DNA of 64,000 nucleotides, from contig JABMOS010000113.1 of NCBI GenBank assembly GCA_013203185.1, forward strand, positions 26,950 through 90,949, read 5' to 3'. The stretch comes from Fidelibacterota bacterium. Its GTDB lineage: Bacteria; Fidelibacterota; UBA8477; JABMPR01. A program made the translations under genes and the position numbers. Positions 1,175 through 48,810 of this stretch are shown piece after piece. The notes beneath the pieces were generated by a model. That model saw only the letters and a list, made by a program, of their open reading frames with translations, made no database searches and was not told the origin of the DNA. Positions within the stretch are counted from its first letter, which is position 1; each line of letters begins with the position of its first letter.

Positions 1175-1211
1175 TACGAAATTTAAATTTCCGAAATTGA
1201 GGGGAGGTCTG

Positions 1212-3960: not shown

Positions 3961-3992
3961 TCTATGAGCACTAATAAACTAGGAAGAACTAT

Positions 3993-5509: not shown

Positions 5510-5520
5510 GCGAGCATGAT

Positions 5521-6783: not shown

Positions 6784-6817
6784 ATAGAGACATCAAACAA
6801 GCGTGAAAGGAGATCCA

Positions 6818-7381: not shown

Positions 7382-7403
7382 TTTTAAAATTGGAAGACTT
7401 GCC

Positions 7404-8411: not shown

Positions 8412-8445
8412 TAGAAATTAATCATATTCTCACCAGTCATTAATG

Positions 8446-8477
8446 AAGAAGGTCGGTATCACACCGACCTTCTTTTT
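8446..8477. terminator. bidirectional rho-independent terminator
   Basis: Perfect 12-bp stem AAGAAGGTCGGT / ACCGACCTTCTT, 5-nt loop, T-tract; sits between convergent genes. Confidence 0.9.
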
Positions 8478-9263: not shown

Positions 9264-9419
9264 ATGTATACGCAAAGTCAATCTCCTGTCTGGCACGTTT
9301 TACCACAATTGTTAATGCTGCGAAGGTTCCAACGAGGAAATATACATTGGCACCACAGTTTTACAACGTGGATTATATATCTGAAGCCATTGAGTTTACT
9401 TGTGGGGTCGTAAGCAGCT

Positions 9420-22754: not shown

Positions 22755-22873
22755 CTCTCGAAGGATAGACACAAAGAGGAACTATATTATGCTTCGTCAG
22801 GCTCAGCAAGACGTAAACAGAGATTTTTTGGAAAAGTATCAGATATTCATAATGATTGAAGAGAGAAATTGAT

Positions 22874-24136
22874 ATGCTAAAAGAAATAATCATACCGGAT
22901 CTTGGGGAAGGCATTGATAGTGTTGAAGTCGGCGAGATTAATGTCAAACCGGGTGATCATGTAGATGTCGGTGATATACTTGTCCTTCTTGAAAGTGACA
23001 AGGCCTCCATGGAAATTGAAGCAGAGATTGCTGGAACCATAAAAGACGTACGAATTACCACTGGTTCTGAAGTCAGCACCAATACTATCCTGGCCACCAT
23101 TGAAGCAGATGAAGCTGAAGAAGAAACAGCTCCTGAGCCAGAAGAAGTTAAGGCTGAGAAAAAACCTGCTAAAAAAGCTCCGGTGGAAACTCCAGTCGAG
23201 GAGGAACTTCCCAAAGCACCTATTGAAGTTCCTGTGACCAAGCGCCGTGTTATCCCTGCCAGCCCTTCTGTGCGCAGGTTCGCCAGAGAATTGGGTGCGG
23301 ACCTCAGTCAAGTTAGTGGAACGGGTCCCAAGGGTCGTGTCCTTAAAGAGGATGTCCAAAATTTTGTCAAGAGTCGTCTAAGTGGCGCACCTGCTATTGG
23401 TCTAAGTAGAGCACCACAACCTGAAATTGATTTCAGTCAGTGGGGTGAAATCGAAACAGTACACCTGAGTAAAATCCGTCGCGCAACTGCAGTGAATCTG
23501 CAAAATGCCTGGCAGACTATTCCCCATGTGACCCAGAACGATGAGACAGATATTACAGAATTGGAAGCTTTCAGGCAGGTGTATAAGCATGCCGTAGCCA
23601 AGGATGGTGGTAAACTGTCTATTTTGCCCTTTATCATGAAAGCGGTGGCCAATGCCCTCAAGGAATTTCCAGACTTTAACAGTTCACTTGATGCACACGG
23701 TGAAAACCTAATTCAGAAAAAATATATCCATTTGGGAATTGCTGTAGATACGCCAAATGGTTTGGTTGTGCCGGTTATCCGTGATGTTGACAAGAAAAGC
23801 TTGAGTGAACTTGCTGTGGAACTGGTGGATGTGAGCACCCGAACCCGGGATCGCAAAATTAAACCTGCTGAACTGGTTGGAGCTACTTTCTCCATCTCAA
23901 GTCTCGGCGGCATCAGTGGAACTGGTTTTTCACCCATTGTCAATCCGCCTCAGGTTGCTATCCTTGGTGTTTCACGATCCAAGATTCAACCAGAGTTTGA
24001 TGGCTCAGAGTTCCAGCCATGTCTCATGCTACCTTTTTCCCTATCCTATGATCACAGGGTAATTGATGGTGCAGCAGCAGCCCGGTTTACAAAATTTATC
24101 GCTGATGAATTGAAGGCGATTAAAAATTTATTTTAG
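22874..24136 (+). CDS. aceF: dihydrolipoamide acetyltransferase (PDH E2)
   Basis: Lipoyl domain [49 protein letters not shown], catalytic [10 protein letters not shown]. Confidence 0.96.
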
Positions 24137-31723: not shown

Positions 31724-32869
31724 ATGGGACAACTATTAACATCCGATGAATCCTTAGACATATCCATCTCAGAGGAGCTGGAAGCACAAGGAGTTAGCCG
31801 ACGAAACTTTCTGAAGTTTTGTACTGCCATCACTGCTGCCATGGGTCTACCTGCAAGCATGGTTGCCAGGGTTGCAGAAACTATTACAAGTCCAACCCGG
31901 ACTCCTGTGATTTGGTTGCACTTCCAGGAATGTACGGGTTGTACAGAATCACTTTTGAGAGCAACACATCCAACTGTTGAAGAATTGGTTTTGGATATGA
32001 TCTCTCTTGACTATTCAGAGACCCTGTGTGCTGCGGCAGGCCATCAGGTTGAAAAATCCCTTAATGATTCAGCGACATTGAATGAAGGTAAATACATCCT
32101 CGTAGTGGAAGGCTCAATTCCAGTAAAAGAAGATGGTATTTATTGCAAGATTGCTGATAGAACTGCGTTGGACATCTTGAAAGATTATGGAAATCGGGCT
32201 GCTGCTGTTGTGGCCATCGGATCCTGTGCCTCCTGGGGTGGTGTTCAATCTTCAAGCCCAAATCCCACTGGAGCAACTGGTGTACACGAAATTATTACAG
32301 ACAAGCCAGTCATCAACCTTCCTGGTTGCCCTGCAAGTCCGTATAATTTGCTCTCAACGATTCTGTATTATCTGACTCTGGGCAAACTTCCCCAATTAGA
32401 CAGCAAAGCTCGTCCAAAATTTGCTTATGGCCGTCTCATTCATGAACATTGTGAACGTCGTCCTCATTTTGATGCAGGTCGTTTTGCTTTGCAATTTGGT
32501 GACGATGGGCATCGTGAAGGCTACTGCCTTTACAAACTGGGATGTAAAGGTCCCGAAACCTTTAACAATTGTTCCTCCATTCTATATGGTGATGTGGGTT
32601 CAGGCGCCTGGCCTGTTGGAACGGGCCATCCTTGTTTTGGTTGTTCAGAAGAGGGTGTGGGATTCACCAAGTACATTCACGAACAATCTGAAGTATTTAC
32701 CGATACACCACCTGCATCATACGCACAAATCTCTGGTGACAAGGCCGGTGGCCTCACTGTGGGTGGCGCTGCTGTCGCAGGAGCCGTGGGAGGTGTCATT
32801 GTTGGTGCCAGTGCTATGGCTGCTAAAAAGATGAAGGCAGAAGAAACTGCTCCGGAATCAGACGCATAA
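31724..32869 (+). CDS. hybO: [NiFe]-hydrogenase small subunit, Tat-exported
   Basis: Twin-arginine SRRNFLKFCTA; ECTGCTES proximal cluster; C-terminal Gly/Ala-rich hydrophobic segment. Confidence 0.95.
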   Translation: MGQLLTSDESLDISISEELEAQGVSRRNFLKFCTAITAAMGLPASMVARVAETITSPTRTPVIWLHFQECTGCTESLLRATHPTVEELVLDMISLDYSETLCAAAGHQVEKSLNDSATLNEGKYILVVEGSIPVKEDGIYCKIADRTALDILKDYGNRAAAVVAIGSCASWGGVQSSSPNPTGATGVHEIITDKPVINLPGCPASPYNLLSTILYYLTLGKLPQLDSKARPKFAYGRLIHEHCERRPHFDAGRFALQFGDDGHREGYCLYKLGCKGPETFNNCSSILYGDVGSGAWPVGTGHPCFGCSEEGVGFTKYIHEQSEVFTDTPPASYAQISGDKAGGLTVGGAAVAGAVGGVIVGASAMAAKKMKAEETAPESDA

Positions 32870-32879
32870 GGAGTTTATG

Positions 32880-33851
32880 ATGAACCTTGAACGACGAGAT
32901 TTTTTAAAGGTTCTTTCGGTCGGCGCGTTGACTGCTGGTAATGTCACAAGCGTATTCGCTGATATTAGAAAGACACTGTCTGCAGATGCTGTTGGTATTC
33001 TGTATGATGGTACGATCTGTATAGGCTGCAAAGCTTGTGAGGCTGCTTGTAAACAGTACAATGATATGCCGCCTGAAAGCGGAAAATTAGAAAAAGCTCA
33101 AGGCGTTGATGGAATCTGGGATGAATCCTATGATCTATCAGAACAAACCTTGAATAAGATAAAGCTCTACGAACATGGTAGTGCCTTAGAACGCAATCGC
33201 GAGGAAAACGGCTTTGCTTTTGTGAAGAAAGCCTGCATGCATTGTGTGGATCCAGATTGCGTATCCGCATGCCCGGTAACAGCGCTGACAAAAAATAGTG
33301 CAACCGGTGTTGTGGAATATGATAAGGATGCTTGCATCGGATGTCGCTATTGTATGGTAGCTTGCCCCTATAATGTGCCGAAATTTGAATACGCCAAAGC
33401 CATTCCTGAAATTCAGAAATGTCAAATGTGTGATCATCGTCAGGCTGAGGGTGGCATCCCTGCCTGTTGTGAATTTTGTCCCACAGGTGCATCGCTTTTT
33501 GGTAAGGTGACTGACCTTCTGGAAGAAGCCCGAAAAAGAGTCAAACTGACAGCTGGTACTTCCTATGAATATCCCATGCGTAGTCTGGCAGAGGGTGATG
33601 TTAGTCCCAAAAAGGTCGCAAAATATATAAATTATATATATGGTGAAAAAGAAGGAGGCGGAACTCAGTATCTACTTCTTTCAGCTATTCCCTTTACAAA
33701 ACTGGGCTTACCAGAAGTTTCTGAGACATCATCTGCATCCAGGTCTGAGGGTATCCAGCATGGAATCTACAAGGGCATGATCGCTCCGGTAGCACTCCTG
33801 GGTGGATTGCTTTATGGTGCCTATCAAACAACTAAGAATGCAGAAGAATAG
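32880..33851 (+). CDS. hybA: hydrogenase FeS subunit (HybA-like)
   Basis: RRDFLKVLSVG Tat leader; CIGCKACEAACKQYND, CMHCVDPDCVSACP, CIGCRYCMVACP. Confidence 0.93.
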   Translation: MNLERRDFLKVLSVGALTAGNVTSVFADIRKTLSADAVGILYDGTICIGCKACEAACKQYNDMPPESGKLEKAQGVDGIWDESYDLSEQTLNKIKLYEHGSALERNREENGFAFVKKACMHCVDPDCVSACPVTALTKNSATGVVEYDKDACIGCRYCMVACPYNVPKFEYAKAIPEIQKCQMCDHRQAEGGIPACCEFCPTGASLFGKVTDLLEEARKRVKLTAGTSYEYPMRSLAEGDVSPKKVAKYINYIYGEKEGGGTQYLLLSAIPFTKLGLPEVSETSSASRSEGIQHGIYKGMIAPVALLGGLLYGAYQTTKNAEE

Positions 33852-33860
33852 GAGCTGACT

Positions 33861-35000
33861 ATGCACGAAAACAAAGCTCTCGGCGGCAGACTGCTCACCA
33901 AGCCATTCTGGGTTCTATTAGGTTTGGCCATGATAGCCGGTTTACTCCTTATCAAACGGTTTCTCTTTGGGATTGGTGCTGTTACCAATCTATCAGACGG
34001 ATATCCATGGGGTATCTGGATTGTTTATGACGTTTTAGTGGGAACGGCCCTGGGTTGCGGTGGATATTCCATCGCCCTCCTGGTGTATATCTTTAACAAG
34101 GGAGAATATCATCCCTTAGTTAGATCCGCTTTAATGACCAGTGCCTTTGGGTATACCCTTGCTGGTGTATCAATTTTTATCGATATCGGTCGCTACTGGC
34201 AGATGTATAACGTATTTCTGCCCTGGCACATCAATCTGAACTCAATCATGTTCGAAGTAGCAGCCTGTATTGGTGCCTATGTGTTTGTCCTTTGGATTGA
34301 GTTCTCACCGACCTTCCTGGAACATCGGCAATCACTTGAAAAGAAAAAGAAACTCAACAAGATACTCTTTTTCTTCATTGCCCTGGGGGTATTACTACCC
34401 ACCATGCATCAGTCCAGCCTGGGTTCATTGATGATCATTGCTGGTGAAAAACTATCACCGATCTGGCAAACTGGCTGGTTACCCTTGTTGTTCTTGATGT
34501 CAGCCATCACCATGGGATATGCTGTTGTCATTTTTGAATCCCTATTTTCAGCTGTCGCGCTCAAACGACCTCTGGATGAAACACCCATACTAGGAAAACT
34601 AAGTGGGATTATGATTCCTCTCTTGGTGCTATTCCTATTGCTACGATTTGGCGATCTCATGTGGCGAGGACAGTTGGGAAATATTTTTAATGATGGAATG
34701 TTAGGAGCGGTCTTCGTTGTTGAAAATCTATTATTCCTGATTCCTATTTTCATGTTGGCCCCAGCGAAAAATCGTATGCATGCCACAACTTTGTTCTGGT
34801 CTTCTGGATCCATGATCCTGGCAGGAGCGCTCTATCGTTTTGACACCTTTCTGGTAGCGTTCAATCCTGGTATTGGATATCACTACTTTCCATCAGCATC
34901 AGAAATCTTGATCACAGTTGGTATCATCTCCATTGAGATCTTGGCTTACCTGATATTCGTCAAAAAGCTCCCGGTATTACCGGCAATCAAACATTCATAA
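33861..35000 (+). CDS. hybB: hydrogenase membrane subunit, NrfD/HybB family
   Basis: ~10 TM; GYPWGIWIVYDVLVGTALGCGGY and TMHQSSLGSLM. Confidence 0.93.
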   Translation: MHENKALGGRLLTKPFWVLLGLAMIAGLLLIKRFLFGIGAVTNLSDGYPWGIWIVYDVLVGTALGCGGYSIALLVYIFNKGEYHPLVRSALMTSAFGYTLAGVSIFIDIGRYWQMYNVFLPWHINLNSIMFEVAACIGAYVFVLWIEFSPTFLEHRQSLEKKKKLNKILFFFIALGVLLPTMHQSSLGSLMIIAGEKLSPIWQTGWLPLLFLMSAITMGYAVVIFESLFSAVALKRPLDETPILGKLSGIMIPLLVLFLLLRFGDLMWRGQLGNIFNDGMLGAVFVVENLLFLIPIFMLAPAKNRMHATTLFWSSGSMILAGALYRFDTFLVAFNPGIGYHYFPSASEILITVGIISIEILAYLIFVKKLPVLPAIKHS

Positions 35001-35024
35001 ACTGAAGATATGAGGATTATATAA

Positions 35025-36731
35025 ATGAGTAAAAGAATCGTAGTTGATCCGGTCACTCGCATAGAGGGACACTTAAGAATTGATTGTGATATTAAGGATG
35101 GCAAGGTTGCTAAAGCCTGGTCATCAGGCCAGATGTGGCGTGGGATTGAAACCATTCTAAAAGGTCGCGATCCACGGGATGCCTGGGTCTTTACCCAAAG
35201 AATCTGTGGTGTATGTACCACTGTGCATGCCATTGCTTCCGTACGAACGGTTGAAAATGCACTGGAAATGGAAATTCCTGTTAACGCACAGTTTATCCGC
35301 AACATGGTCATTGCTGCCCATGGTATTCACGATCATATCGTGCATTTCTATCATCTATCCGCTCTGGATTGGGTAGACGTTGTGTCGGCCCTGTCTGCTG
35401 ATCCAAAAGCTGCCTCAAAACTTGCTCAGAGTCTGTCTGACCATCCCAATAATGGCTGGCAGGAATACAAGGCGGTACAGGATAAGTTGAAGACATTTGT
35501 GGGATCAGGACAATTGGGTATTTTTGCCAATGGTTACTGGGGTCATCCCGCCATGAAATTACCACCAGAGGTCAATCTCATAGCAGCAGCCCATTATCTG
35601 GAAGCCTTCGAGATTCAGAGAAAAGCAAACCAGATCACAACTATCCTGGGATCAAAAACACCTCATATCCAGAACCTGGCTGTAGGTGGCGTTTCCAATC
35701 CTATTAACCCTGACAGCCAAGCTGCTTTAAATATGGAACGACTGCAGATGGTTAAAGGTCTCATGGATCAATTGAAATCCTTTATCTACAATGCCTATAT
35801 CGTGGATGTAGCTGTCGTCGCATCCTTCTATCAAGACTGGCTAGGTTATGGTTCAGGTGTAACGGATTATCTCTCCGTACCCGACTTTCCAACTGATACC
35901 AAGGGAACCCAATTTGGTACTCCAGGTGGATATATCCCTGGTGGAGATATTAGCAAACTCAAACCAATCACTTCCTTCCAGGACAAGTTTTTCCGTGACG
36001 GTGTCAAGGAAAGTGTGAAGCACTCATGGTACAAGGGTGAGGGGAATTTGCATCCGTATAAGGGTGAAACTGAACCCCATTATACTGATTTTGAAGATGA
36101 TGGTAAATATAGTTGGGTGAAAGCGCCAACATTCCTGGGCAAACCAGCCCAGGTCGGACCTCTGGCTAATGTGCTTAACATGTATGCCCAAGGTCATGAG
36201 ACAACGCAGAAAGTTGCCGGTGTTGCCTTTGCCAAGATCAAGGCCATCACAAAATCTAAATCTGATATACCAATCAGTGTTCTCCATTCTACGCTGGGTC
36301 GCCACGCTGCCCGCGCTATTAGAACTGCCGTACTTTTTGAAGAACTTGAGAAAAATTACAATCTCTTGATAAACAATATTGCCGGTGGTGATTTTGAAAC
36401 CTTTAACCCACCTGTCTTTCCAAAGGGCGAGCAACAGGGTTTTGGTTTTCATGAAGCCCCTCGTGGTGTGCTATCACATTGGATTGTTATTAAAAATGGT
36501 AAGATCGAGAATTATCAAGCCGTGGTACCTTCCACCTGGAATGCAGCACCTCGGAATGATGATGATGCAGTAGGCCCCTATGAGGCATCCCTCGTGGGTA
36601 ATCCCATTGCAGATGAAGAAAAACCATTAGAGGTACTACGGACAGTACACTCCTTCGATCCTTGTCTGGCATGTGCAATTCACCTGCATGACAACAAACG
36701 GAAGAATATTTCGAAAGTCCATGTCCTCTAA
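35025..36731 (+). CDS. hybC: [NiFe]-hydrogenase large subunit
   Basis: RIEGHLRID, RICGVCTTVHA, C-terminal DPCLACAIH plus cleavable tail LHDNKRKNISKVHVL. Confidence 0.97.
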   Translation: MSKRIVVDPVTRIEGHLRIDCDIKDGKVAKAWSSGQMWRGIETILKGRDPRDAWVFTQRICGVCTTVHAIASVRTVENALEMEIPVNAQFIRNMVIAAHGIHDHIVHFYHLSALDWVDVVSALSADPKAASKLAQSLSDHPNNGWQEYKAVQDKLKTFVGSGQLGIFANGYWGHPAMKLPPEVNLIAAAHYLEAFEIQRKANQITTILGSKTPHIQNLAVGGVSNPINPDSQAALNMERLQMVKGLMDQLKSFIYNAYIVDVAVVASFYQDWLGYGSGVTDYLSVPDFPTDTKGTQFGTPGGYIPGGDISKLKPITSFQDKFFRDGVKESVKHSWYKGEGNLHPYKGETEPHYTDFEDDGKYSWVKAPTFLGKPAQVGPLANVLNMYAQGHETTQKVAGVAFAKIKAITKSKSDIPISVLHSTLGRHAARAIRTAVLFEELEKNYNLLINNIAGGDFETFNPPVFPKGEQQGFGFHEAPRGVLSHWIVIKNGKIENYQAVVPSTWNAAPRNDDDAVGPYEASLVGNPIADEEKPLEVLRTVHSFDPCLACAIHLHDNKRKNISKVHVL

Positions 36732-37212
36732 CCCCGAGGTGGTCGTCCTCGGCCTGGGTAATATCCTCATGGAAGATGAGGGTGTTGGTGTCCATGCCGC
36801 AAACCACCTCCAAGAGCATTACCACTTTGAGCCAGAAATCGAGATCGTTGATGGGGGAACCAGCGGTCTCGATCTTCTGCCTTTTTTTGGACCAGAAAAA
36901 TCTATATTAATTATTGATGCTGTTAATTTTGATATGGAGCCAGGTACTGTTGGTAAGCTAGAAGACGATGCAATCCTCGCTCAATTAGATCCCAAAATTT
37001 CACTTCATCATTTGGGTCTTTCCGATCTCATCAGTATCGCCGAACTTACTGATAAGAAGGCCAAGCGAATGACATTGCTGGGCATTCAACCCAAGTCCAT
37101 GGAGAATCTGGATCTGGAAATGACACCAACTATCAAGGGGGTGTTTAACAAGGTTATTGAAAATGCTCTGCTGATTTTAAAAGAATGGGGCATAGAGAAC
37201 CGCAGGCAATAA
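36721..37212 (+). CDS. hybD: hydrogenase maturation endopeptidase
   Basis: VVVLGLGNILMEDEGVGVHAANHL; overlaps the large-subunit stop. Confidence 0.95.
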   Translation: MSSNPEVVVLGLGNILMEDEGVGVHAANHLQEHYHFEPEIEIVDGGTSGLDLLPFFGPEKSILIIDAVNFDMEPGTVGKLEDDAILAQLDPKISLHHLGLSDLISIAELTDKKAKRMTLLGIQPKSMENLDLEMTPTIKGVFNKVIENALLILKEWGIENRRQ

Positions 37213-37271: not shown

Positions 37272-37676
37272 ATGAAAATCTTCAAAAACACCTCCATCTT
37301 TCAACTGCTGCTATATCTCATAGCTGTCCATTCTTTCTGTGTGGGAATAGCGCTGATTGTACTTCCTTTCGGTGCGCTCTCCTGGTTTGGTTTCACAGTA
37401 GATCCCTATAGATTTTTCTCCACCCAGGGTGGAGTTTTTCACGTTGTTATGACTATTGCCTATTTATTAGCAGCCAAAAACCCAGTTGGTGAGAAAAATT
37501 TGATTCTATTCATAATTCTTGCAAAATGGGTTGCCTTCTTTTTTCTGGCTTTCTATTTCCTATTCTCAGAAATGGTGCCAGTCATAGCAATTTCTGCAGT
37601 CAGTGATGGATTGATGGGTTTACTAGTCATGATGTTTTTCCTGGAATTATATACGGAGGAGGAAGTAGTTGACTGA
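37272..37676 (+). CDS. small polytopic membrane protein
   Basis: 4 hydrophobic segments; overlaps the next gene by 8 nt. Confidence 0.65.
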   Translation: MKIFKNTSIFQLLLYLIAVHSFCVGIALIVLPFGALSWFGFTVDPYRFFSTQGGVFHVVMTIAYLLAAKNPVGEKNLILFIILAKWVAFFFLAFYFLFSEMVPVIAISAVSDGLMGLLVMMFFLELYTEEEVVD

Positions 37677-39207
37677 CAACATCCTTCCCAGGATAGTTAT
37701 CACGGGTGCTTCAGGATTCATTGGCAGGAACTTCGTAGAAACCTACCAGGACAGTTTTCAGATTTTCGCCATTGCCCGGCGGAGTCAGCAAGAAGTTGGG
37801 ATCCCAAGACATAAAAATATTACCTGGTTACTGGTTGATGTGGCTGATGCCAAAAATGTCCGTGATGCCATGGACGAAATTAAGGCAGGGGGCGGTGCCG
37901 ATTATTTTATACATCTCGCAGCCTTTTTTGATTTTTCCAATGAGCCGAATGCAGAATACGAACGCACCAACGTGCAGGGTTCAAAATTAATATTTGAAGC
38001 AGCAGCTGGCCTGGGTCTTAAAAGATTTATTTTTGCCAGCTCACTGGTTGTCTCAGAATTTCCTCAAAGAGGCGATAGACTCACTGAGGAAAGTTCTCTT
38101 GATGCAGATTTTCCCTATGCAGTTACCAAAATAGCTGGTGAGGCTATGGCCAGGGAATGGTCAACAACCTTCCCATGTACTGTGGTTCGATTTGCGGCGG
38201 TGTATAGTGATTGGTGCGAATATGGACCACTCTATAAATTTATAGATACCTGGTCATCAAGATCATGGAAATCAAGAGTACTTGGGGGGCGGGGAGAATC
38301 ATCTGTTCCTTATATTCACATTGTTTGCCTGGTGAGAATGTTGAAGACCATTCTTGACAAAACCGAACAGTTAAAAACCTTCGATGTGCTTATCGCGAGT
38401 CCCGATGAAAGTACCAGTCACCAGGAACTATTCGACTTCAGTACCAGATTCGTTTTTGGGGACAAGCGCAAGGCAATCCATATGCCCGTTGCGCTGGCCA
38501 GGCTGGGTGTGTCTCTCATGGATTTTGCTGGTCGGCTCATCGGTCATCGTCCCTTTGAACGTCCCTGGATGATGAAGTACATTGACCAGCGCATGGATGT
38601 GGATGCCAGCTACACAAGGGGTGAGCTGGATTGGCAGGTTATTCCACGCTACCGACCCGAGCGTAGGATTCTGCATGTCATCGAGCATATGAAAACTTAT
38701 CCCATAGAGTGGCATCAGAAGAATGCCCTGGCACTATTTAAGAATCCTGAAAGACCGAATCTTGAGATATCTGAGGCACTGGTCCTGCATGAAGAAGAAA
38801 TTCTTACAAGCCTAATCAATCAAATAATGCGAGTTGAAGACCCCACACGATACCACTCCTATAAGAAAATGCCTCCGGAAAAACTGTCCTGGTATCTCGG
38901 TATTGTATACAACTTATTGAAGGTTTCCGTGAGGACTGGAGACCGTCTTTCCCTGGCCAACTACGCACGATTTATCGCTAGTATTCGTATCCATGAGGGT
39001 TTTAAATTAACCGAGGTCGTTGATGTTTATGAGACTCTGGCTGAGTTGGTCATTCGACATCTCCTTGAACATGATTCTGTTAAACATCTCGAGCAACGCA
39101 TCCGCGACGACATTGATCTGACCATACAGATGGCAGTTGATGAAATCGAAGATGCTTACGATATCGGTCAAGCCCCAGCCTCTTACATTCGATTTCACGA
39201 TAGGTAG
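37669..39207 (+). CDS. NAD-dependent epimerase/dehydratase-like extended SDR with extra C-terminal domain
   Basis: ITGASGFIGRNFVETY; YPYAVTKIAGE (YxxxK); ~180-aa helical C-terminal extension shared with the neighbour. Confidence 0.85.
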   Translation: MTDNILPRIVITGASGFIGRNFVETYQDSFQIFAIARRSQQEVGIPRHKNITWLLVDVADAKNVRDAMDEIKAGGGADYFIHLAAFFDFSNEPNAEYERTNVQGSKLIFEAAAGLGLKRFIFASSLVVSEFPQRGDRLTEESSLDADFPYAVTKIAGEAMAREWSTTFPCTVVRFAAVYSDWCEYGPLYKFIDTWSSRSWKSRVLGGRGESSVPYIHIVCLVRMLKTILDKTEQLKTFDVLIASPDESTSHQELFDFSTRFVFGDKRKAIHMPVALARLGVSLMDFAGRLIGHRPFERPWMMKYIDQRMDVDASYTRGELDWQVIPRYRPERRILHVIEHMKTYPIEWHQKNALALFKNPERPNLEISEALVLHEEEILTSLINQIMRVEDPTRYHSYKKMPPEKLSWYLGIVYNLLKVSVRTGDRLSLANYARFIASIRIHEGFKLTEVVDVYETLAELVIRHLLEHDSVKHLEQRIRDDIDLTIQMAVDEIEDAYDIGQAPASYIRFHDR

Positions 39208-39253
39208 CCCCTTAAGACTGTTTGATTCAGAGGATCAATCTTGGAGTGAAGGA

Positions 39254-40771
39254 ATGGATTATCAAAATACCAGTAAAACCGTCCTAATCACTGGTGCCTC
39301 CGGGTTCATCGGTCGCCATCTCGTGAAATATCTGTGTCCTGAATACCGCGTCCTCGCTTTTGCCAGGCGTACCCAGAAGGAAGTTGACCTGGAACCACAT
39401 CCCAACCTTGAGTGGCTCCTGGTGGATATCACGGATCCCGTCAAATTCAGACAGGCATTTATCATCGCAACATCACTAAATCCTCCAGATTACATATTTC
39501 ATCTGGCAGCCTATTACGATTTTGGAGACCAGGTTTACTCTGATGTCTACGAGAAAACCAATATTGGAGCAACCCGCATTCTGTTGGAACTCACGAAAGA
39601 AATCGGGGTCAAACGATTTATTTTTACCAGTTCCCTGGTTGCCAGTAAATTCCCTGAGCCTGGCGAATATGTCAATGAGAACAGACCACCAGACGCAGAA
39701 TATCCCTATGCCAGAACCAAGTGTCAAGGGGAGGAGCTGGTTCGTGAATTCTCAAGATATTTCCCCTGTTCAATAGTTCGTCTGGCTGCCGTCTGCAGTG
39801 ACTGGTGTGAGTACGAACCCCTGTATCATTTCTTGAAGATATGGCTTTCGGATCGCTGGGATGCCCGCATTCTCCCTGGCAAAGGAAACATGGCCATTCC
39901 ATACATTCATGTTTGCTGTGTGATTTCATTATTTGATCAGATTTTGAAAAAAACCGATGAATTGAAGCCCTATGATACCTTTCTGGCTAGTTCAGACGAA
40001 CCAGTATCCCTGGCAAAAATGTTTGGATATGCGACGCGGCACTATTTCGGTCAGACAAGGCAACCTATCTATTTCCCCCTTTTCCTGGCCAGACTGGGCG
40101 TACGATTCAGAAACTTCAAAGGCAAACTCATAGGCAAGCCTCCCTTTGAGAAATTATGGATGCTTGAATACACGGATAAAATATTTTCCACTGATTCATC
40201 ATACACGCGAGAGACTTTAGATTGGCAGCCAAAATCAAGACATCAGATTTCAAGGCGTTTGTTGCATTTGATTGAGAATCTTAAAGCCAGACCAGAGACA
40301 TGGCATCGGAAAAATATTGATCGATTGCACAGATTCTCCACAAGTCGTCCCTCACTGGCTTTGGCAGAAGAAATGGTCAGGATGCATGAGCAGTTTGTGG
40401 ATCAGATTTATACACGCATCATGCTACCTGAAAATGCAAAAATATTAAAATTGTACCAGGCCATGTCTACAGACGACTTAAAATGGTATATTAATGTGGT
40501 TTATAACAACCTCTTGACCTCAGTGCGTCATGGTGACAGGTCCATCATGATTACTTTTGCCCACGATCTCTCACAGCGGAAAATGCAGGAAGACGCAAGT
40601 CTTGAAGCTATATGCCAGGCTTTGTACATCACCCGCGATATTATTACTGAAGGGTTGCACAAAAATCCCAACCTGGCGGAGATGAAGCTGCTTGTACATG
40701 ACTATATCACCCTGGCGATTCAGTTGGCCATCGATGAAATCAAGGATGTATATGAAAATGTGCCCCTTTAG
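39254..40771 (+). CDS. NAD-dependent epimerase/dehydratase-like extended SDR (tandem paralog)
   Basis: LITGASGFIGRHLVKYL; YPYARTKCQGEEL; full-length similarity to 37669..39207. Start ATG 39254, not 39137. Confidence 0.86.
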   Translation: MDYQNTSKTVLITGASGFIGRHLVKYLCPEYRVLAFARRTQKEVDLEPHPNLEWLLVDITDPVKFRQAFIIATSLNPPDYIFHLAAYYDFGDQVYSDVYEKTNIGATRILLELTKEIGVKRFIFTSSLVASKFPEPGEYVNENRPPDAEYPYARTKCQGEELVREFSRYFPCSIVRLAAVCSDWCEYEPLYHFLKIWLSDRWDARILPGKGNMAIPYIHVCCVISLFDQILKKTDELKPYDTFLASSDEPVSLAKMFGYATRHYFGQTRQPIYFPLFLARLGVRFRNFKGKLIGKPPFEKLWMLEYTDKIFSTDSSYTRETLDWQPKSRHQISRRLLHLIENLKARPETWHRKNIDRLHRFSTSRPSLALAEEMVRMHEQFVDQIYTRIMLPENAKILKLYQAMSTDDLKWYINVVYNNLLTSVRHGDRSIMITFAHDLSQRKMQEDASLEAICQALYITRDIITEGLHKNPNLAEMKLLVHDYITLAIQLAIDEIKDVYENVPL

Positions 40772-40778
40772 GTGGTGC

Positions 40779-41309
40779 CTAATCAATGAGTGCTGAAAGT
40801 TCTTCCTGACAGGAGGGACAAAACCTGTCCGATTTCTGATCCATCTCTTCTACATAAGTTGTTGAAACCATAACACATCCAGGTTTGAGACAATGTTTTA
40901 GTCCAAATGCATGTCCAAGCTCGTGCACGATGCACTTAATGATGCGCTCAGAGTACAATTTTGGATCCCCTGCCAGACCATAGCGTCGGTTGTCGAGACG
41001 ATGTCCGGAAACCAGAGCTACGGAGCCTCCCAGGTAGGCTTGTCCAAAGATATAACTCAGTACCGGAATAAATAAATCCAGATCTGTTACACCGACAATC
41101 TTATCATACTCGCCTGTGAGGGGCAGCAACTTATGGATGATTTCATTGGCGTTGTATTGTGATCTGACGGGATTGAAGAAGGGGGTGAGGTCCATGTGAT
41201 AACTACTCAGTCTGGTTTCCATTTTGAAGCGGTTGCTCAGCACATTGAGCATGATTTCCAGGGTTTCAACACTGGAAAATTGCAAGGGGATGATCCTGAT
41301 CAGGGACAT
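40779..41309 (-). CDS. amzA: archaemetzincin family zinc metalloprotease
   Basis: HELGHAFGLKHCLKPGCVMVSTTYVEEMDQKSDRFCPSCQEEL matches HExxHxxGxxHC(x4)CVM...FCxxC. Confidence 0.93.
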   Translation of the reverse strand: MSLIRIIPLQFSSVETLEIMLNVLSNRFKMETRLSSYHMDLTPFFNPVRSQYNANEIIHKLLPLTGEYDKIVGVTDLDLFIPVLSYIFGQAYLGGSVALVSGHRLDNRRYGLAGDPKLYSERIIKCIVHELGHAFGLKHCLKPGCVMVSTTYVEEMDQKSDRFCPSCQEELSALID

Positions 41310-41332
41310 TAATCGAGACCAGAGCTAGCCGA

Positions 41333-42670
41333 TTATACCTTCTCGATCTTGTATTTCTTAATTTTGCTGTACAGGGTTACTCGGTCAACCCCCAGTGCCT
41401 TGGCAGCCCGGGAAATATTCCATTCGTATTTATTCAAAATGGTCTCAATATGATGGTACTCCATATCCTGGATAGATTCCCAGGTGGGTTTACTTAACTG
41501 GTGTTCGAATGGGAGATCCTTCAGTTGTACTGTATCTCCGCTACCAATTACGATTGCTCGCTCGATGAGATTCTCAAGTTCGCGTACATTCCCGGGGAAA
41601 GGATAATTGCTGAGAGCTTTGGCAGCCCTTTTACCGATAAAGCGGGTCCCCTTGTTCATTTGATCAGCATAAAGCTTTACAAAATGCTCTGACAGGAGTT
41701 TGATATCCTCAGGACGTTCACGCAAGGGAGGTATCTCAATGGAGAAAACATTAAGACGATAATACAAGTCTTCTCGGAATTCACCAGACTTGACCATGGC
41801 TTGGAGGTCACGATTGGTGGCACAGATCACTCGAAAATCAGATTGAAACTCACGATTCCCACCAACGCGGGCAAATCGTTTTGTCTCCAAAACACGTAGC
41901 AATTCAATCTGCATTTTCATGGAGATAGTGGAAATTTCATCCAGGAAGAGTGTCGCTCCATCTGCCATTTCAAACTTGCCCTTGCGAGCATATTGGGCAC
42001 CAGTAAAGGCACCTCGCTCATGTCCAAATAATTCGCTTTCCATGAGGTTCTCTGCGATAGCCCCGCAATGCACTGTGACCATGGGAAAAAATCGACGGGG
42101 GGAATTCATGTGAATGGCCTTGGCAATGAGCTCTTTACCTGTCCCACTATCCCCGTGGATGATGACCGTAGAATCCGTTTCAGCAACAATGCGTACATTT
42201 TCCAACACGTTGAGAATCCCTTCACTCTGGCCAATGATAGACTCAACATTAACCAGGCTTTTTATACGGTCCTGCAGGGAGAGGTTTTCACGGCTGAGTT
42301 GGATGGATTTGCTGGCGTTTCGAATGATATGGGTGACTGCATCTGGATCGAAAGGTTTGCAGACATAATCGTATGCGCCATCCTTCAGCGCCTGGACTGC
42401 TGAATCCACAGAGGCAAAGGCGGTCATGATGATAACAATGGTATCCTCATTGATGGCTTTGATGCGGCGATTGAGCTCAAGGCCATCCATGCCGGGAAGC
42501 TTGATATCAATAAGGATGATATGGAAATGGTATGCCTCGATTTTTTTTAAGGCCACTTTGGCATCTTCTGCAGTGTCAACCGTATATCCATCTTCAATGA
42601 ACCAGTTGGATAAGGAATCACGAACTGAGAGTTCATCATCCACTACCAATATGGAAAGATTATTGTCCAT
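41333..42670 (-). CDS. sigma54-dependent NtrC-family response regulator
   Basis: Receiver domain (VVDDE, DIKLPGMDGLE), AAA+ GDSGTGKELIAKAIH, GAFTGA, C-terminal Fis HTH. Confidence 0.96.
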   Translation of the reverse strand: MDNNLSILVVDDELSVRDSLSNWFIEDGYTVDTAEDAKVALKKIEAYHFHIILIDIKLPGMDGLELNRRIKAINEDTIVIIMTAFASVDSAVQALKDGAYDYVCKPFDPDAVTHIIRNASKSIQLSRENLSLQDRIKSLVNVESIIGQSEGILNVLENVRIVAETDSTVIIHGDSGTGKELIAKAIHMNSPRRFFPMVTVHCGAIAENLMESELFGHERGAFTGAQYARKGKFEMADGATLFLDEISTISMKMQIELLRVLETKRFARVGGNREFQSDFRVICATNRDLQAMVKSGEFREDLYYRLNVFSIEIPPLRERPEDIKLLSEHFVKLYADQMNKGTRFIGKRAAKALSNYPFPGNVRELENLIERAIVIGSGDTVQLKDLPFEHQLSKPTWESIQDMEYHHIETILNKYEWNISRAAKALGVDRVTLYSKIKKYKIEKV

Positions 42671-44336
42671 CATCCAGCCTCCCCGAACTAAGTTTAAATT
42701 TAAATTTTAATGATGTACCGACGCCGGGACTAGAATCCACTGCGACTTTGGCCTGGTGTTGCTCCAATATCCCATAGGTGACTGCCAGTCCCAATCCAAT
42801 TCCTGACATCTCCTTTTTGCTGGAAAAGAAAGGCTCAAAAATGTGTTCCTGGTCAGCTTCGGAAATACCAATACCATTGTCCTTGATTTCGATGATAATA
42901 TGCTGCATGTCGGGATTATAGCTTCGGTAGGTAACCAAACTGTCTGCTCCGGGACTGACTGCTTCCAGAGCATTGGTGAGAACGGCTAGACAAGCCTGAA
43001 TGATTTGGTTTCCATTAGCCTGAATCAAATCTCTACTTGCTGAAAAATCAGTAACCAACCTGACATTAGATATTTGAAACCGGTGTTGGATTAGCTGTTC
43101 AGTCTCGCGGAGAACGGTATTCACATGGATGTCATCAAATTTTTGGCTACCATCTCGGGAGAAATTGAGCAGTCCTTTGACAATATTACCACAGCGGGTC
43201 GTTTCTGATTGGATCATATCAAGGTGTTTCAGTACGGCAGTTTTCTTCTCATCTGTAAATTCACTATTCTGAAGAATTCTTGATATCAGTTTGGCATAGG
43301 TCAGTACCCCGGCCAGGGGGTTATTGATTTCATGGGCAACAGATGATGACAATCGCCCCAGGGAAGCCAGACGTTCTATCTGATAAATCTCGTTCTGTGT
43401 TCTGGCTATATCTTCTGATTTACTGCGAACCTTGTTTTCCAATTCATTGGACCACTGATGCAATTCACGATTGCTCTCATTAATAGATTCCAACATGGTA
43501 TTCAAGGCCAGGCCCACTTGATGAATATCAATTAAATCATTGGGTTGCACATTTACTCTCACCGATAGATTCCCTGCAGTAACGGCTCGACTGGCGTCAA
43601 CAATTCGCTTGAGTGGATAATTGATACGACGTTGAACAAAGAAGAGGAGGGTGGCCACCAACAGAATCAGAAATAGAACAACAATACTGAAGTATTCGAA
43701 GAGGACTTTATTTAGAGCAGTGTCAAGCTCAGTGAGGGGTAATTCGATCTCCATAAAACCAAGTATTTCATTTGGTGAAGAGGTCTGGTGGCAGGAAATG
43801 GAACCGCACGAAGGGGCAGACATGATGGGAGACAGGACAATCATGTTCCGGCCTTCTTCCATAACGACATTGTAGACACAGGTGGCCGGCATGCCCCATT
43901 GGGCAGGGTCAACATTGGTATGACAATGTGAGCAGGGAAGCATAGGATCTTGCCCCTTGGCTTTGCTTGATTCATCCTGTGTATGATGTCTGATCTCGCC
44001 GCGGTTATTATATATCCTGATGGCGCTGATCCCTGGAACCTCCAATACTTCATTGATGGCCAGGGTTAGCTCGGCATGATCTTCACTGATCATACTGCTG
44101 CGAATAGATTTGTCAATCACTTTGGCCATGCGCTTACCAAAACGGGTTGTTACATTTTCCAGATAATTATTAGACATTGAAAAGATGAGCCAGGCCAGGA
44201 ATGCAAATAAAACCACAGACATGCTTACCAGCAGGGAGAGGAGATGGCCATATAGTGATTTCGGTTGAAATCTTCTTCTGAGATAAGCGCTGTATCGATT
44301 TGATTGTCGTGGAACCTGATTGGTACGAGAACCCAT
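42660..44336 (-). CDS. sensor histidine kinase with periplasmic CxxCH motif and HAMP domain
   Basis: VAHEINNPLAGVLTYAKL H-box, DNGIGISEADQEHIFEPFFSSK; periplasmic CSHCH and CGSISCH. Confidence 0.93.
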   Translation of the reverse strand: MGSRTNQVPRQSNRYSAYLRRRFQPKSLYGHLLSLLVSMSVVLFAFLAWLIFSMSNNYLENVTTRFGKRMAKVIDKSIRSSMISEDHAELTLAINEVLEVPGISAIRIYNNRGEIRHHTQDESSKAKGQDPMLPCSHCHTNVDPAQWGMPATCVYNVVMEEGRNMIVLSPIMSAPSCGSISCHQTSSPNEILGFMEIELPLTELDTALNKVLFEYFSIVVLFLILLVATLLFFVQRRINYPLKRIVDASRAVTAGNLSVRVNVQPNDLIDIHQVGLALNTMLESINESNRELHQWSNELENKVRSKSEDIARTQNEIYQIERLASLGRLSSSVAHEINNPLAGVLTYAKLISRILQNSEFTDEKKTAVLKHLDMIQSETTRCGNIVKGLLNFSRDGSQKFDDIHVNTVLRETEQLIQHRFQISNVRLVTDFSASRDLIQANGNQIIQACLAVLTNALEAVSPGADSLVTYRSYNPDMQHIIIEIKDNGIGISEADQEHIFEPFFSSKKEMSGIGLGLAVTYGILEQHQAKVAVDSSPGVGTSLKFKFKLSSGRLDDGQ

Positions 44337-44403
44337 GATCCCCCCACTTAATAGCTGACTAAGTAAATAATAGCGAAAGTTGTTAATGCATAATACATGC
44401 CAG

Positions 44404-45111
44404 TTAGCAAGCGTAAGCCAGGCTATCGCTAATGTCCATTAAGTATTTCGAGAAAGATTTTTTGCCGATTTGGGATCTTCGAACAAGATTTTGGGGCGCT
44501 AGGTCAGTCTCATTTTCTATGATCTGCTTAAAACGATTTAAATCTTCCTCAATCAGATCGAGATATTCATCTCTCCTAAGGTATGCAAGTTCCAGAGATG
44601 ATTCATCCACTGCCAGTTCCACCAACCAGAGGTCTTCTTCCGGGCTCATGTATAAATGACTATCCTGAATTTGACTAGCGCCGAACAGAGGATTGGTCTG
44701 GATAATCTGCCCAGCGAGAGGCGAGCGGAGGAAAATAATATCATCTTCTAGCTGTAGCCAGCTGAAGCACTGAGTCTCAAGGAGGGAAGTGTATGTTTTT
44801 GGAGTAATTATTTTCTGAACAGATGAAAAAAATTGCCACAAAAATGCATCAATTCCCAGACGCATTTTACCCTGCCCGGTTCTTTTAATCCAGAAATGCC
44901 GATGGGTAAACTGGAGACCTGGAGTAAACTGAATAACAGAAGATTCTGGTGTTCGCAGATTGAGTGTTTTGGATTCAGCAGTATTCGTGGATCGACGATA
45001 GCCCCGCGTCATTTCCTTGTGAAAGTCACATAAATCGCAGTGTTGCTTAAGGGGGCAAAGTTGATATTCAATTGATCCCGCTTCCATCCAGATACATTTT
45101 TGCGATTCCAT
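44404..45111 (-). CDS. Cys-rich GcvH-like protein
   Basis: N-terminal C-x12-C-x5-C-x2-C (CIWMEAGSIEYQLCPLKQHCDLC) followed by a GcvH-like region FWIKRTGQGKMRLGIDAFLW...FLRSPLAGQI. Confidence 0.65.
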   Translation of the reverse strand: MESQKCIWMEAGSIEYQLCPLKQHCDLCDFHKEMTRGYRRSTNTAESKTLNLRTPESSVIQFTPGLQFTHRHFWIKRTGQGKMRLGIDAFLWQFFSSVQKIITPKTYTSLLETQCFSWLQLEDDIIFLRSPLAGQIIQTNPLFGASQIQDSHLYMSPEEDLWLVELAVDESSLELAYLRRDEYLDLIEEDLNRFKQIIENETDLAPQNLVRRSQIGKKSFSKYLMDISDSLAYAC

Positions 45112-45199
45112 TTTTTTAATCCACCTATATGTCGTTTAGGGGAATGGCACAGGGGGAACAAAGTTGAACCCCATGTAATGCGCCTCTAGCCACATCATC

Positions 45200-45892
45200 T
45201 CATTTAGCTGCATCGATAAATTCAGATTGGAACTCTTCCCAGATTTCTGGGGAAAGTGATTCCAAAACTTGATCTTGAATTTCGCCACCCTCCTGGAGGA
45301 GAACAGGTTGAAGGCTTAGATCATATTTCCTCTCGGCAAAGGCAAGTACATCACGTAATCTGGCTTGTTCCTGTTGCATCCACCCCTGGGCTTTTTCGCC
45401 CAGAATGAGCATGGCTTTTTCCACATCCCAGCGTTTGGGAGCCATATCGAACAACCAATTCTCAGTGAATTCTTTGCTGGTTCGTTTGCTGAATTTGTGG
45501 AGTGCCTGTTTGTTGATGGATTTCAAGGTACCAGTCACGGGAGAATAGACTTTCAAACTTTTACCCTCACTCATGAGTGTGGCAAGATGATCTCCGCGCT
45601 CAATATTTTCACCACTTGATTTGTGAAGTTTCAAGGACACGGGCCCGGTAAGCGCAGTAAGAAAGTCATCGATTCCAACTTGCACTTGTCCTGCACTTTT
45701 GAGATAGGCCCAGGTGTGGGTCTTGTCGAAGAACACACCTCGTGGCAGGCGGACATTGGCCAGTGAAAAAAGAGGCCCTTCTACTTCCTTGAGGTAGTTG
45801 TAAAAGGGGATGAACACCAGAAAGAAACTGATGATGAGTAGATATTCAATTCCTTTTGTTGCAAATATGTCGTTATAGTAAAGGTTTGGCAT
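45200..45892 (-). CDS. GcvH-like (lipoyl-domain-fold) protein with N-terminal TM
   Basis: TM near N-terminus; THTWAYLKSAGQVQVGIDDFLTALTGPVSLKL...KVYSPVTGTLKSIN. Confidence 0.78.
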   Translation of the reverse strand: MPNLYYNDIFATKGIEYLLIISFFLVFIPFYNYLKEVEGPLFSLANVRLPRGVFFDKTHTWAYLKSAGQVQVGIDDFLTALTGPVSLKLHKSSGENIERGDHLATLMSEGKSLKVYSPVTGTLKSINKQALHKFSKRTSKEFTENWLFDMAPKRWDVEKAMLILGEKAQGWMQQEQARLRDVLAFAERKYDLSLQPVLLQEGGEIQDQVLESLSPEIWEEFQSEFIDAAK

Positions 45893-45904
45893 GATAATGT
45901 TACC

Positions 45905-47137
45905 TTATGCGGTTGGTTTGGGGGCTGTCATTGATTCCATGGTTCTTAACACGGGCATGCGATGGAGAACCCAGCGGAAGATCCATATCTGCACGAAGAG
46001 GATGGCCACGGTTACGACGATTTCCATCCAGGTTGGGATATAACGGGGAATCTCATCCCAGCGATAGGCGATTACAGATACGTTCATACGATTGAGGACA
46101 ATCCCAATCAGGGTCATGATGGAGGCCAACTTGATTGTGAAGGGCGTACCCAGTCTAACACCTCTAACAAAGAGCAACATTGGCACAAGGACAAAACCGA
46201 TCATTTCAATCATATACCATACGCCCATGGGGGTCATGAGGTATCCCAGGGTATGATTGTGTACTGAATCAACAATCTTGAGAAAGAAATATACAAACAT
46301 AGTGACCGCACAAACCCGGGAAAGACCGCGAATCATAATATTGTGATTTTCATCGCTATGTTTATCCATCTGATATGCGAACACCCTCTGCAGGATGCTA
46401 CCTTGAAAGATCACCATACTCAGTCCGGCAAAAATGCTGGAGATGAAAAACAGGGTGGGGATGAATTCTGAATACCAGAGCGGGTGAATTTTACCCTTGG
46501 CCATGAGGAACAGTGCACCCAATCCAGACTGGTGAAGGGTGGAAAGTGTAATACCAAAAACAACAGCACCTATGGTGAGACGCTTTAGGTTTCGTCTGGC
46601 ACGCTCCGAACCTAACCATTCAGCTACTGCTGGGGAAAACTCAATGAGTTGGGCAAAGATATAGAGAATAAAATGCCAGGCCACTAAAAAGAGAATACTG
46701 CTGGTGCCAAAGGAGTTGCCTATGATGGGATTGATGATGTTCCATGGTTTCCCCAGGTCAAGTATCAAGGCAATGGCATAGAAAGTATAGGCCAAAAACC
46801 CATTCAAGACGGTGACTCTCACCAAGGGTTTATATTTTTCCATTCCCAGGATATATACCATAAATGTCAATACATAGGCTCCCCCTGCAAAAGCCACGCC
46901 TGTGACCACATTAAAACCTTTCCACAGCCCCCAGGGTACCATTTGGGTCACATTGGAAACTGCTGAGAGTCCATACACAAAGCGAATGACAATAATAACT
47001 GCTGCGACAATTACTGTTGGAACAGAAATCATATTGAAGATGGTCCAGGGATTACCCCTGGGTTTTAGCTCAGAAAGTAAAAACTTCCAGGTACTGGTAG
47101 GACGTCCATAAGGCTTAGTCAACACACTTTCACTCAT
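45905..47137 (-). CDS. HybB/NrfD-family polytopic membrane protein
   Basis: ~10 TM; VPWGLWKGFNVVTGVAFAGGAYVLTF and TLHQSGLGALFLMAKGKIHPLWYSEFIP. Confidence 0.92.
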   Translation of the reverse strand: MSESVLTKPYGRPTSTWKFLLSELKPRGNPWTIFNMISVPTVIVAAVIIVIRFVYGLSAVSNVTQMVPWGLWKGFNVVTGVAFAGGAYVLTFMVYILGMEKYKPLVRVTVLNGFLAYTFYAIALILDLGKPWNIINPIIGNSFGTSSILFLVAWHFILYIFAQLIEFSPAVAEWLGSERARRNLKRLTIGAVVFGITLSTLHQSGLGALFLMAKGKIHPLWYSEFIPTLFFISSIFAGLSMVIFQGSILQRVFAYQMDKHSDENHNIMIRGLSRVCAVTMFVYFFLKIVDSVHNHTLGYLMTPMGVWYMIEMIGFVLVPMLLFVRGVRLGTPFTIKLASIMTLIGIVLNRMNVSVIAYRWDEIPRYIPTWMEIVVTVAILFVQIWIFRWVLHRMPVLRTMESMTAPKPTA

Positions 47138-48002
47138 GGTCTTCTCCTTCCACGTCTTCTTGGTCATCTTTTTTTAGCGCTCCTCTCAAACCCATGAGCA
47201 AGGCTGGCCATAGAACAAAGACAGAGGGCACACTATAGAGGAATCCCTTGGTTAATTCAGGATAGGGCTTTGTTTCCAGGTCTGTTTTAAAACCGAGTTC
47301 CTCAAAAGGGACGGGGGAGATGTTTAACCACGATGTTCCACCAGCTTCATATTCACCATACACATGATCAACATAGCTTGCAGGATCTTCCATGATTCGG
47401 CGGTGTGCCTCATGCAGGATTTCGCTTCGTCTGCCGAAGGTAAGTGCTCCAGCGGGACAGTTTTCCACACAGGCTGGAACTTCACCTTGTTTCAGTCTAT
47501 CAAAACACATCTGGCATTTGCCAATTTTAGGATTGTTATCATCAAACTCGAATTTCGGAATATCGAAGGGGCAGGAGACCATGCAGTATCGGCAGCCCAT
47601 ACATTTGCCTTCAGTCCAGGTTACAGGGCCCTCTTTTTGTTTTTTCATGGCCTGTGTAAGACAGGCAGAAGCACAGGCCGGTTGTGCACAATGCATGCAT
47701 TGTTGCTTCGTATATACTTCGCCGGCACTGGTTTCGACAGCATTGATTACCGAGTATTGATCTGGTTTTAATTGTCGTTTTATTTCACTATCCGGGTAGT
47801 CGGTAGGTTCTGGAAGGCCATTGGCCGTAGCACAGGCAAATTCGCATTCCTGACAACCCTCGCAAAGAGTAACGTCATGGAGGATGGCATAGAATTCTTC
47901 CTGATCCAGTTCAGTTTTAGAATTTCCCAGTGCGGTAGCTCCACTCAGGGTAGCGCTGGCAACTCCCAGAGTCTTCAGAAATTCGCGTCTATCAATAGAC
48001 AT
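47130..48002 (-). CDS. HybA-like Tat-type 4Fe-4S ferredoxin subunit
   Basis: DRREFLKTLGVASATLSG; CEGCQECEFACATANG, CMHCAQPACASACLTQA, CMGCRYCMVSCP. Confidence 0.92.
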   Translation of the reverse strand: MSIDRREFLKTLGVASATLSGATALGNSKTELDQEEFYAILHDVTLCEGCQECEFACATANGLPEPTDYPDSEIKRQLKPDQYSVINAVETSAGEVYTKQQCMHCAQPACASACLTQAMKKQKEGPVTWTEGKCMGCRYCMVSCPFDIPKFEFDDNNPKIGKCQMCFDRLKQGEVPACVENCPAGALTFGRRSEILHEAHRRIMEDPASYVDHVYGEYEAGGTSWLNISPVPFEELGFKTDLETKPYPELTKGFLYSVPSVFVLWPALLMGLRGALKKDDQEDVEGEDHE

Positions 48003-48051
48003 ATTGGATTGTCCTTACATTTCTAGAATGAATTATGTGAGTGAGGGATCA

Positions 48052-48762
48052 TCAAGATTTGTGAGTCAATTCTTGATTCGATGGATCCAGAATGAGCTTT
48101 TGAAATGAACCCCAAAGACCTTTCCCAGCATAGGCGAGAGCGCCATCAGCAATGTCACCACCTTCTTGAAGCAAAGCCAAGCCACGTTCAGCATGTGGTG
48201 GGGCAAAAGAGTGGGCAAAGAAATCACGGATCCTGGCAATCTCCGCTTTTAACCAGGTTAGGGTACGGGCCCCACGATAGAGACGCTGGGTTTCAGTTTC
48301 CCAGTTTGATGGTTCAAGTTTGACCAACCACCCTGCTGCATAGGGGTCGCGGTGTACAATCCCCAGGTTTTGAAGAGCCACCTGATTAATTTTCTTAACA
48401 GTTCCTGATATAGGAGCAGAGATCACCAATGTTTTACCCTCATGGGAAATTTTGAACATAGGATCACCCTGTTTTACCTCTTGGTCCTTTTCAGGAACAG
48501 TTATCTCAGTGAGAATCCCGGTTAATCCATTTAAAAATGCATCAACTCCAACTTTTGCATCACCATTGGATTGCATATGTGCCCAACTGTGTGTTGGACT
48601 AAAGTACACACCGTCCGGTGAGGCAAGTCTATCCGGTTTTAATTGATAGGTTTTCTGAATAACGATTGGTGAATCACTCAAAACCTTGATACGTTTATCT
48701 TCCCTGTACCAGGAAATCGAGATAACGATTGCGACAAATGTTAAAACAAATAAGATGACCAT
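48052..48762 (-). CDS. GcvH-like (lipoyl-domain-fold) protein with N-terminal TM
   Basis: FSPTHSWAHMQSNGDAKVGVDAFLNGLTG...EGKTLVISAPISGTVKKIN...DPYAAGWLVKLEPSNWE aligns along GcvH. Confidence 0.82.
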   Translation of the reverse strand: MVILFVLTFVAIVISISWYREDKRIKVLSDSPIVIQKTYQLKPDRLASPDGVYFSPTHSWAHMQSNGDAKVGVDAFLNGLTGILTEITVPEKDQEVKQGDPMFKISHEGKTLVISAPISGTVKKINQVALQNLGIVHRDPYAAGWLVKLEPSNWETETQRLYRGARTLTWLKAEIARIRDFFAHSFAPPHAERGLALLQEGGDIADGALAYAGKGLWGSFQKLILDPSNQELTHKS

Positions 48763-48795
48763 AATGAACCTCCTTTTTAGTTCGCCTTATCTAAT

Positions 48796-48810
48796 TCAAG
48801 GGGGGTGCCA
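48796..48810 (-). promoter_or_regulatory. sigma54-type (-24/-12) promoter
   Basis: Minus strand TGGCAC-CCCCC-TTGA versus consensus TGGCAC-N5-TTGC; 34 nt upstream of the GcvH-like ATG (48762), with AAGGAGG SD between. Confidence 0.65.

Follow-up and report, generated by a model that had tools for sequence, protein, structure and literature searches.

Annotation routinely labels homologues of GcvH as lipoylated proteins of glycine cleavage. A second group of described systems, the ferredoxin/NrfD pairs of the Hmc and Hyb complexes, connects extracytoplasmic electron carriers with quinones. The LbpA proteins of sulfur-oxidising sHdr systems are GcvH-like proteins that have been drawn into an energy-metabolism cluster, where they retain a strictly conserved lipoyl-lysine and are served by dedicated ligases and LipS enzymes (eLife 2018, PMC6067878). 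A fold of the lipoyl type can also act as a structural element without any cofactor, as in the adaptor proteins of efflux pumps (PMC8277102). Here, we describe an eight-gene operon (40779-48762, minus strand) in a 64,000-nucleotide stretch of contig JABMOS010000113.1 from an uncultured marine Fidelibacterota bacterium, referred to below as the window and used for all coordinates. Read from 48762 downwards, the operon encodes H-like A, a ferredoxin, an NrfD protein, H-like B, H-like C, a histidine kinase, a response regulator, and an archaemetzincin; all of its features given below lie on the minus strand. The three GcvH-like proteins, H-like A, B, and C, very probably represent a branch of the GcvH fold that has no lipoyl-lysine and is not lipoylated. 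No description of the operon was found in the open-access literature.

Three GcvH-like proteins lack the lipoyl-lysine

H-like A (48052..48762) and H-like B (45200..45892) each consist of one N-terminal hydrophobic transmembrane helix, a GCV_H domain without the lipoyl-lysine (Pfam E = 6.7e-18 and E = 2.4e-10, respectively), and a C-terminal extension reading LLQEGGD in A and LLQEGGE in B. An earlier note, made from the DNA alone, had described these two membrane-anchored copies and had placed their lysine one residue nearer to the glycine than in GcvH, and both observations hold. With the lipoyl-lysine of E. coli GcvH (K65 counting Met) as the reference column, gapless alignment puts a glycine in this column and the lysine at +1, within the hairpin motifs SHEGKTLVISAPISG in H-like A and MSEGKSLKVYSPVTG in H-like B. 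The retention of DPYxxGWL, which had been claimed for both copies, applies to H-like A; the corresponding segment of H-like B reads EFTENWL. The earlier note further counted two GcvH-like proteins in a span of 45200-48762, which covers only four of the eight operon genes and overlooks a third such protein, H-like C (44404..45111). This protein joins a four-cysteine N-terminus to a GcvH fold with aspartate in the lysine column, and has no lysine at either 0 or +1.

The predicted structure of H-like A places the remaining lysine off the tip of the hairpin. The AlphaFold models are of single chains; that of H-like A has a mean predicted local distance difference test score (pLDDT) of 82.4, rising to 94-97 in the hairpin block, and matches the lipoylated E. 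coli H protein 3ab9 with a template-modelling score (TM-score, target) of 0.90 at 1.6 A (Foldseek). Its hairpin turns at E108-G109, between strands 101-107 and 110-115; the glycine is in the lipoyl-lysine column, and K110 opens the second strand (48433..48441). Thus, the hairpin prediction that had been proposed as a check puts Glu-Gly at the tip and the lysine on the following strand. In H-like B, the equivalent residues are E109-G110, again with glycine in the lipoyl-lysine column, and K111 at +1 (45560..45568); the GcvH assignment of this protein comes from Pfam only. H-like C has a sub-threshold Pfam GCV_H match (E = 0.004), and its predicted structure (mean pLDDT 74.5) resembles GcvH structures, with TM-scores of about 0.7-0.8 to most of them and a best value of 0.81 (Foldseek). 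Its cysteine motif, C6-C19-C25-C28 (45028..45096), is invariant in 14 aligned homologues and is a possible metal or Fe-S site.

The H-like proteins share with GcvH (TIGR00527, PF01597) the fold, at a TM-score of 0.90 for H-like A, as well as Gly(+11), Pro(+8) and, in H-like A, the DPYxxGWL motif, but they lack the lipoyl-lysine and Glu(-3) and carry, in A and B, a transmembrane anchor and a C-terminal (E/D)GG extension. In addition, no glycine cleavage genes adjoin them, and their scores against the NCBIfam gcvH equivalog (60.5, 32.1, and 16.8 bits) all fall far below its cut-off of 115.85. The extension, in which a helix comes after the (E/D)GG motif, was seen in the window and in L075, L128, and L129; it is shared by H-like A and B and by a subset of H-like C proteins, and is absent from GcvH.

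Loss of the lysine is uniform among homologues

Our homologue set comprised 68 cluster-encoded proteins from Candidatus Neomarinimicrobiota (22 A, 21 B, and 25 C), and was compared with 29 GcvH and five lysine-bearing LbpA-like proteins, all from the same phylum except E. coli GcvH. Lysine occupies the lipoyl column in none of the 68 cluster homologues, as opposed to 29/29 GcvH and 5/5 LbpA-like proteins. Likewise, Glu(-3) is present in all 34 lysine-bearing proteins but in only three of the 68 cluster proteins, nearly all of which retain Gly(+11) and Pro(+8). In a tree of 115 columns with long branches, GcvH groups with LbpA (99/96) and A with B (97/86), while C falls outside with an unsure placing. 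Since the tree unites the lysine-bearing proteins on the one hand and A and B on the other, one loss of the lysine suffices.

Comparison of the window with congeners gave ratios of nonsynonymous to synonymous substitution rates (dN/dS) of 0.02-0.15 where computable, many pairs being saturated in dS, which indicates that the H-like genes are under purifying selection. Pseudogene decay or chance was considered as a source of the missing lysine and is ruled out by these ratios and by the uniform loss over the 68 homologues. Gene order is the same in those congeners that have the operon, and more remote families of the phylum retain it in altered form. A plasmid search with the H-like C of one relative (G028) returned no match, and a scan of genome contigs with narrow patterns returned close relatives only. 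Similar four-cysteine GcvH-like proteins may also exist in other phyla.

The +1 lysine is a poor candidate for a displaced lipoylation site

The lysine at +1 could in principle mean that the site has moved by one residue, so that K110 of H-like A and K111 of H-like B carry lipoate or another acyl group and both proteins act as membrane-tethered lipoyl carriers. The earlier note had left the choice between such a re-registered site and a domain used unmodified; the evidence favours the latter, and we regard re-registration as very improbable. In its favour, +1 is lysine in 17/22 A and 18/21 B proteins and, within the genus, in 15/16 A and 14/15 B, where entropy at this position is low although the adjacent tip residues vary. 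This superior conservation over the neighbouring residues weighs against our preferred reading, and the +1 lysine may matter in some way. However, other homologues have Arg, Asn, Gln, Met or Glu at +1, none of the 25 H-like C proteins has lysine there, and no sequence has Glu(-3) or Gly(+11) around the +1 lysine when positions are counted from it. The position of the lysine on the strand rather than at the hairpin tip of the AlphaFold model, and an operon without a ligase, also speak against re-registration. Published mutants of the B. stearothermophilus lipoyl domain, whose target is K42, point the same way: according to the review that recounts them, the A43K variant, with a lysine at +1, was not doubly lipoylated, the added lysine staying free of lipoate, and the D41K K42A variant, with the lysine moved to -1, received no lipoate (Wallis and Perham 1994, reviewed in PMC6270654). 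We favour unmodified use of the domain because the +1 lysine is replaceable, lacks its flanking residues, lies off the tip, and has a published counterpart that stayed unlipoylated.

Lipoate is available in the lineage

Among the genomes of the genus, 15/19 encode LipA and 17/19 encode LipB/LplA. The window itself encodes a pyruvate dehydrogenase (PDH) E2 (22856-24136) with a normal lipoyl hairpin, in which ESDKASME is retained at the usual +11 spacing. The window's own genome, which is 82% complete, yielded no match to LipA, LipB/LplA or canonical GcvH, and its single PF03099 match (L004) looks like a biotin ligase on our reading. A lineage without lipoate was also considered as an explanation, and is ruled out by the frequency of LipA and LipB/LplA in the genus and the normal lipoyl site of the PDH E2.

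A congener carries an sHdr-type cluster (L074; G009:C252:95000-114000) with HdrA/B/C-like proteins, an LplA-like protein, LipS2, and two lysine-bearing GcvH-like proteins, which suggests a sulfur-oxidation type pathway in the lineage. Lipoate ligase and Hdr-like genes adjoin the GcvH-like genes in this cluster, and none is present in the operon at 40779-48762. Because the sHdr-type cluster has both the lysine and the enzymes, and the H-like operon has neither, the GcvH-like redox carriers of this lineage appear to keep their lysine and to be supplied with the enzymes. The contrast with LbpA is direct, since both kinds of cluster occur in the same genus: LbpA retains its lysine and has dedicated ligases and LipS enzymes, whereas the H-like operon is without both.

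In the H-like clade, conserved within its operon across several Candidatus Neomarinimicrobiota families, the known site is therefore unable to accept lipoate, and automatic annotation of its members would mislead. With it, the GcvH fold gains a second, cofactor-free use beside respiratory genes.

Redox partners encoded in the operon

The gene following H-like A encodes a four-cluster [4Fe-4S] protein of the HmcB/HybA type, predicted to be exported by the twin-arginine translocation (Tat) system (47130..48002; NCBIfam HmcB 1.6e-96, HybA 5e-67). Both matches are under the equivalog cut-offs (323.1 versus 420 bits for HmcB), and the protein has at least 16 cysteines and an RR motif in congeners. 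Its neighbour is an NrfD-family membrane protein of the HmcC/HybB type (45905..47167; NCBIfam HmcC 2.1e-107, Pfam NrfD 1.9e-13), likewise under the HmcC equivalog cut-off (359.7 versus 550 bits).

The operon thus resembles the Hmc complex of sulfate reducers (HmcA/B/C) in its HmcB-like and HmcC-like subunits and, in two complete genomes (G215 and G217), in a 13-haem cytochrome. It differs in scoring below the HmcB and HmcC cut-offs and in the absence of any HmcD, E or F that we could see; instead, it has three H-like proteins, a two-component system of its own, and an archaemetzincin. With HybAB of [NiFe] hydrogenase 2, it shares the ferredoxin/NrfD pair but lacks hydrogenase subunits. A separate hydrogenase-2-type operon on the plus strand of the window (31724-37212) encodes a small subunit, HybA, HybB, a large subunit, and a maturation protease, with HybA and HybB above their cut-offs and no H-like proteins. 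Weak Pfam RnfC_N and NQRA_N matches recall another unmodified lipoyl-type fold, that of the RnfC/NqrA N-domains; however, these domains and the efflux adaptors are short and of the biotinyl/lipoyl type, whereas the H-like proteins are of the GcvH type.

Promoter and two-component control

A Shine-Dalgarno AGGAGG (48769..48774), kept before the ATG in congeners, puts the H-like A start codon at 48762. Upstream of it, 48 nucleotides before this start, lies a sigma-54 (-24/-12) promoter-like site, TGGCACCCCCCTTGA (48796..48810, minus strand), with one mismatch to TGGCAC-N5-TTGC. The one-mismatch pattern occurs twice in the whole window, which by itself is no more than chance; the background of the strict pattern is 0.04 per kb. 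In 21/21 loci, H-like A is preceded by a similar site, a few distant loci having one- or two-base deviations or another distance to the start, and it is this conserved position rather than its frequency in the window that makes the site credible. At the level of sequence, the operon combines this -24/-12 site with an NtrC-type activator, a response regulator with Response_reg, Sigma54_activat, and HTH_8 domains (41333..42673).

The partner of the regulator is a membrane histidine kinase with an extracytoplasmic sensor domain (42660..44336; HisKA, HATPase_c, HAMP). Two cysteine motifs lie in this sensor domain: a haem-c motif, CSHCH (CXXCH; 43920..43934), and a possible haem motif, CGSISCH (CX4CH; 43788..43808), which are present in 16/21 and 21/21 homologues, respectively, including that of the window.

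The last gene of the operon encodes an archaemetzincin (40779..41309; NCBIfam archmetzin above cut-off) with an intact zinc motif, HELGHAFGLKHC. This motif is intact in 19/19 sequences checked, and the gene is tied to the operon also in distant families. The operon thereby provides a fixed gene context for a bacterial archaemetzincin, a member of a family of poorly known function.

A proposed electron-transfer module and its rivals

The fold, the lysine loss, the conservation of the operon, the promoter-like site, and the kinase and regulator domains are supported by the sequences. Building on these, we somewhat favour the view that the operon specifies an electron-transfer module that induces itself and is linked to quinones, with the H-like domains serving as unmodified scaffolds on the cytoplasmic face. 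The ferredoxin/NrfD pair, of the HmcBC/HybAB type, would mediate electron exchange of the quinone pool with carriers outside the cytoplasm; here we infer the electron path from the described pairs. The sensor kinase would read the extracytoplasmic redox state through putative c-type haems and phosphorylate the NtrC-type regulator, which would then switch on the operon at the sigma-54 promoter that precedes H-like A. H-like A and B, with domains presumably on the cytoplasmic face, would combine with the soluble, four-cysteine H-like C into an unmodified scaffold on which the NrfD module or cytoplasmic partners could assemble or dock.

Several points weigh against this proposal. The scaffold role is a prediction, and the ferredoxin has no Tat signal in some relatives (L075, L124). 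By the positive-inside rule, the cytoplasmic topology appears clear for H-like A, which has no charges before its transmembrane helix and 2-5 Lys/Arg after it, but weak for H-like B, with one before and 3-4 after. If H-like A and B were instead periplasmic, they could dock the Tat-exported ferredoxin or cytochromes, and the lysine would have been lost as cytoplasmic lipoylation cannot reach an exported domain. The export of the redox partner encoded next door, the ferredoxin, fits such an arrangement, but the charge pattern at the helices of both proteins favours the cytoplasmic side, which makes it unlikely.

The main rival to the scaffold role comes from variant loci, and casts the H-like proteins as signalling adaptors that would inform the kinase and regulator of the state of the NrfD/ferredoxin pair, or of a metal bound at the four-cysteine motif of H-like C, the module being mainly a redox sensor. 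In two loci (L126 in G142 and L127 in G143), the regulator, the archaemetzincin, and H-like C occur without A, B or NrfD, and H-like C keeps company with the regulatory genes. The group in L127, which includes the kinase, adjoins genes for a NuoF-type subunit, an [FeFe]-hydrogenase-like protein, and DRTGG and PHP proteins. However, in the remaining loci long enough to judge, ferredoxin and NrfD genes accompany H-like A. Moreover, G215 and G217 have their 13-haem cytochrome between B and C, the copy scanned in G217 being related to HmcA, and this addition of a multihaem cytochrome in two loci suggests bulk electron transfer; the window's operon has no such gene. Taken on both sides, the signalling role seems doubtful. 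The H-like C proteins of L126 and L127 have two four-cysteine motifs and are encoded next to the regulator and archaemetzincin.

We also tentatively consider an undescribed kind of membrane module for energy transduction or redox signalling, which would have three cofactor-free copies of the GcvH fold as dedicated structural or signalling subunits of an NrfD-type complex, haem-sensing sigma-54 self-control, and the archaemetzincin as an integral component.

Other features of the window

Five open reading frames at 1005-9299 contain 4-12 CXXCH motifs, as in multihaem c-type cytochromes, and three of them are confirmed by Pfam. Two neighbouring NAD-dependent epimerase/dehydratase genes on the plus strand (37669-39207 and 39137-40771) are built alike, possibly as the result of a tandem duplication.

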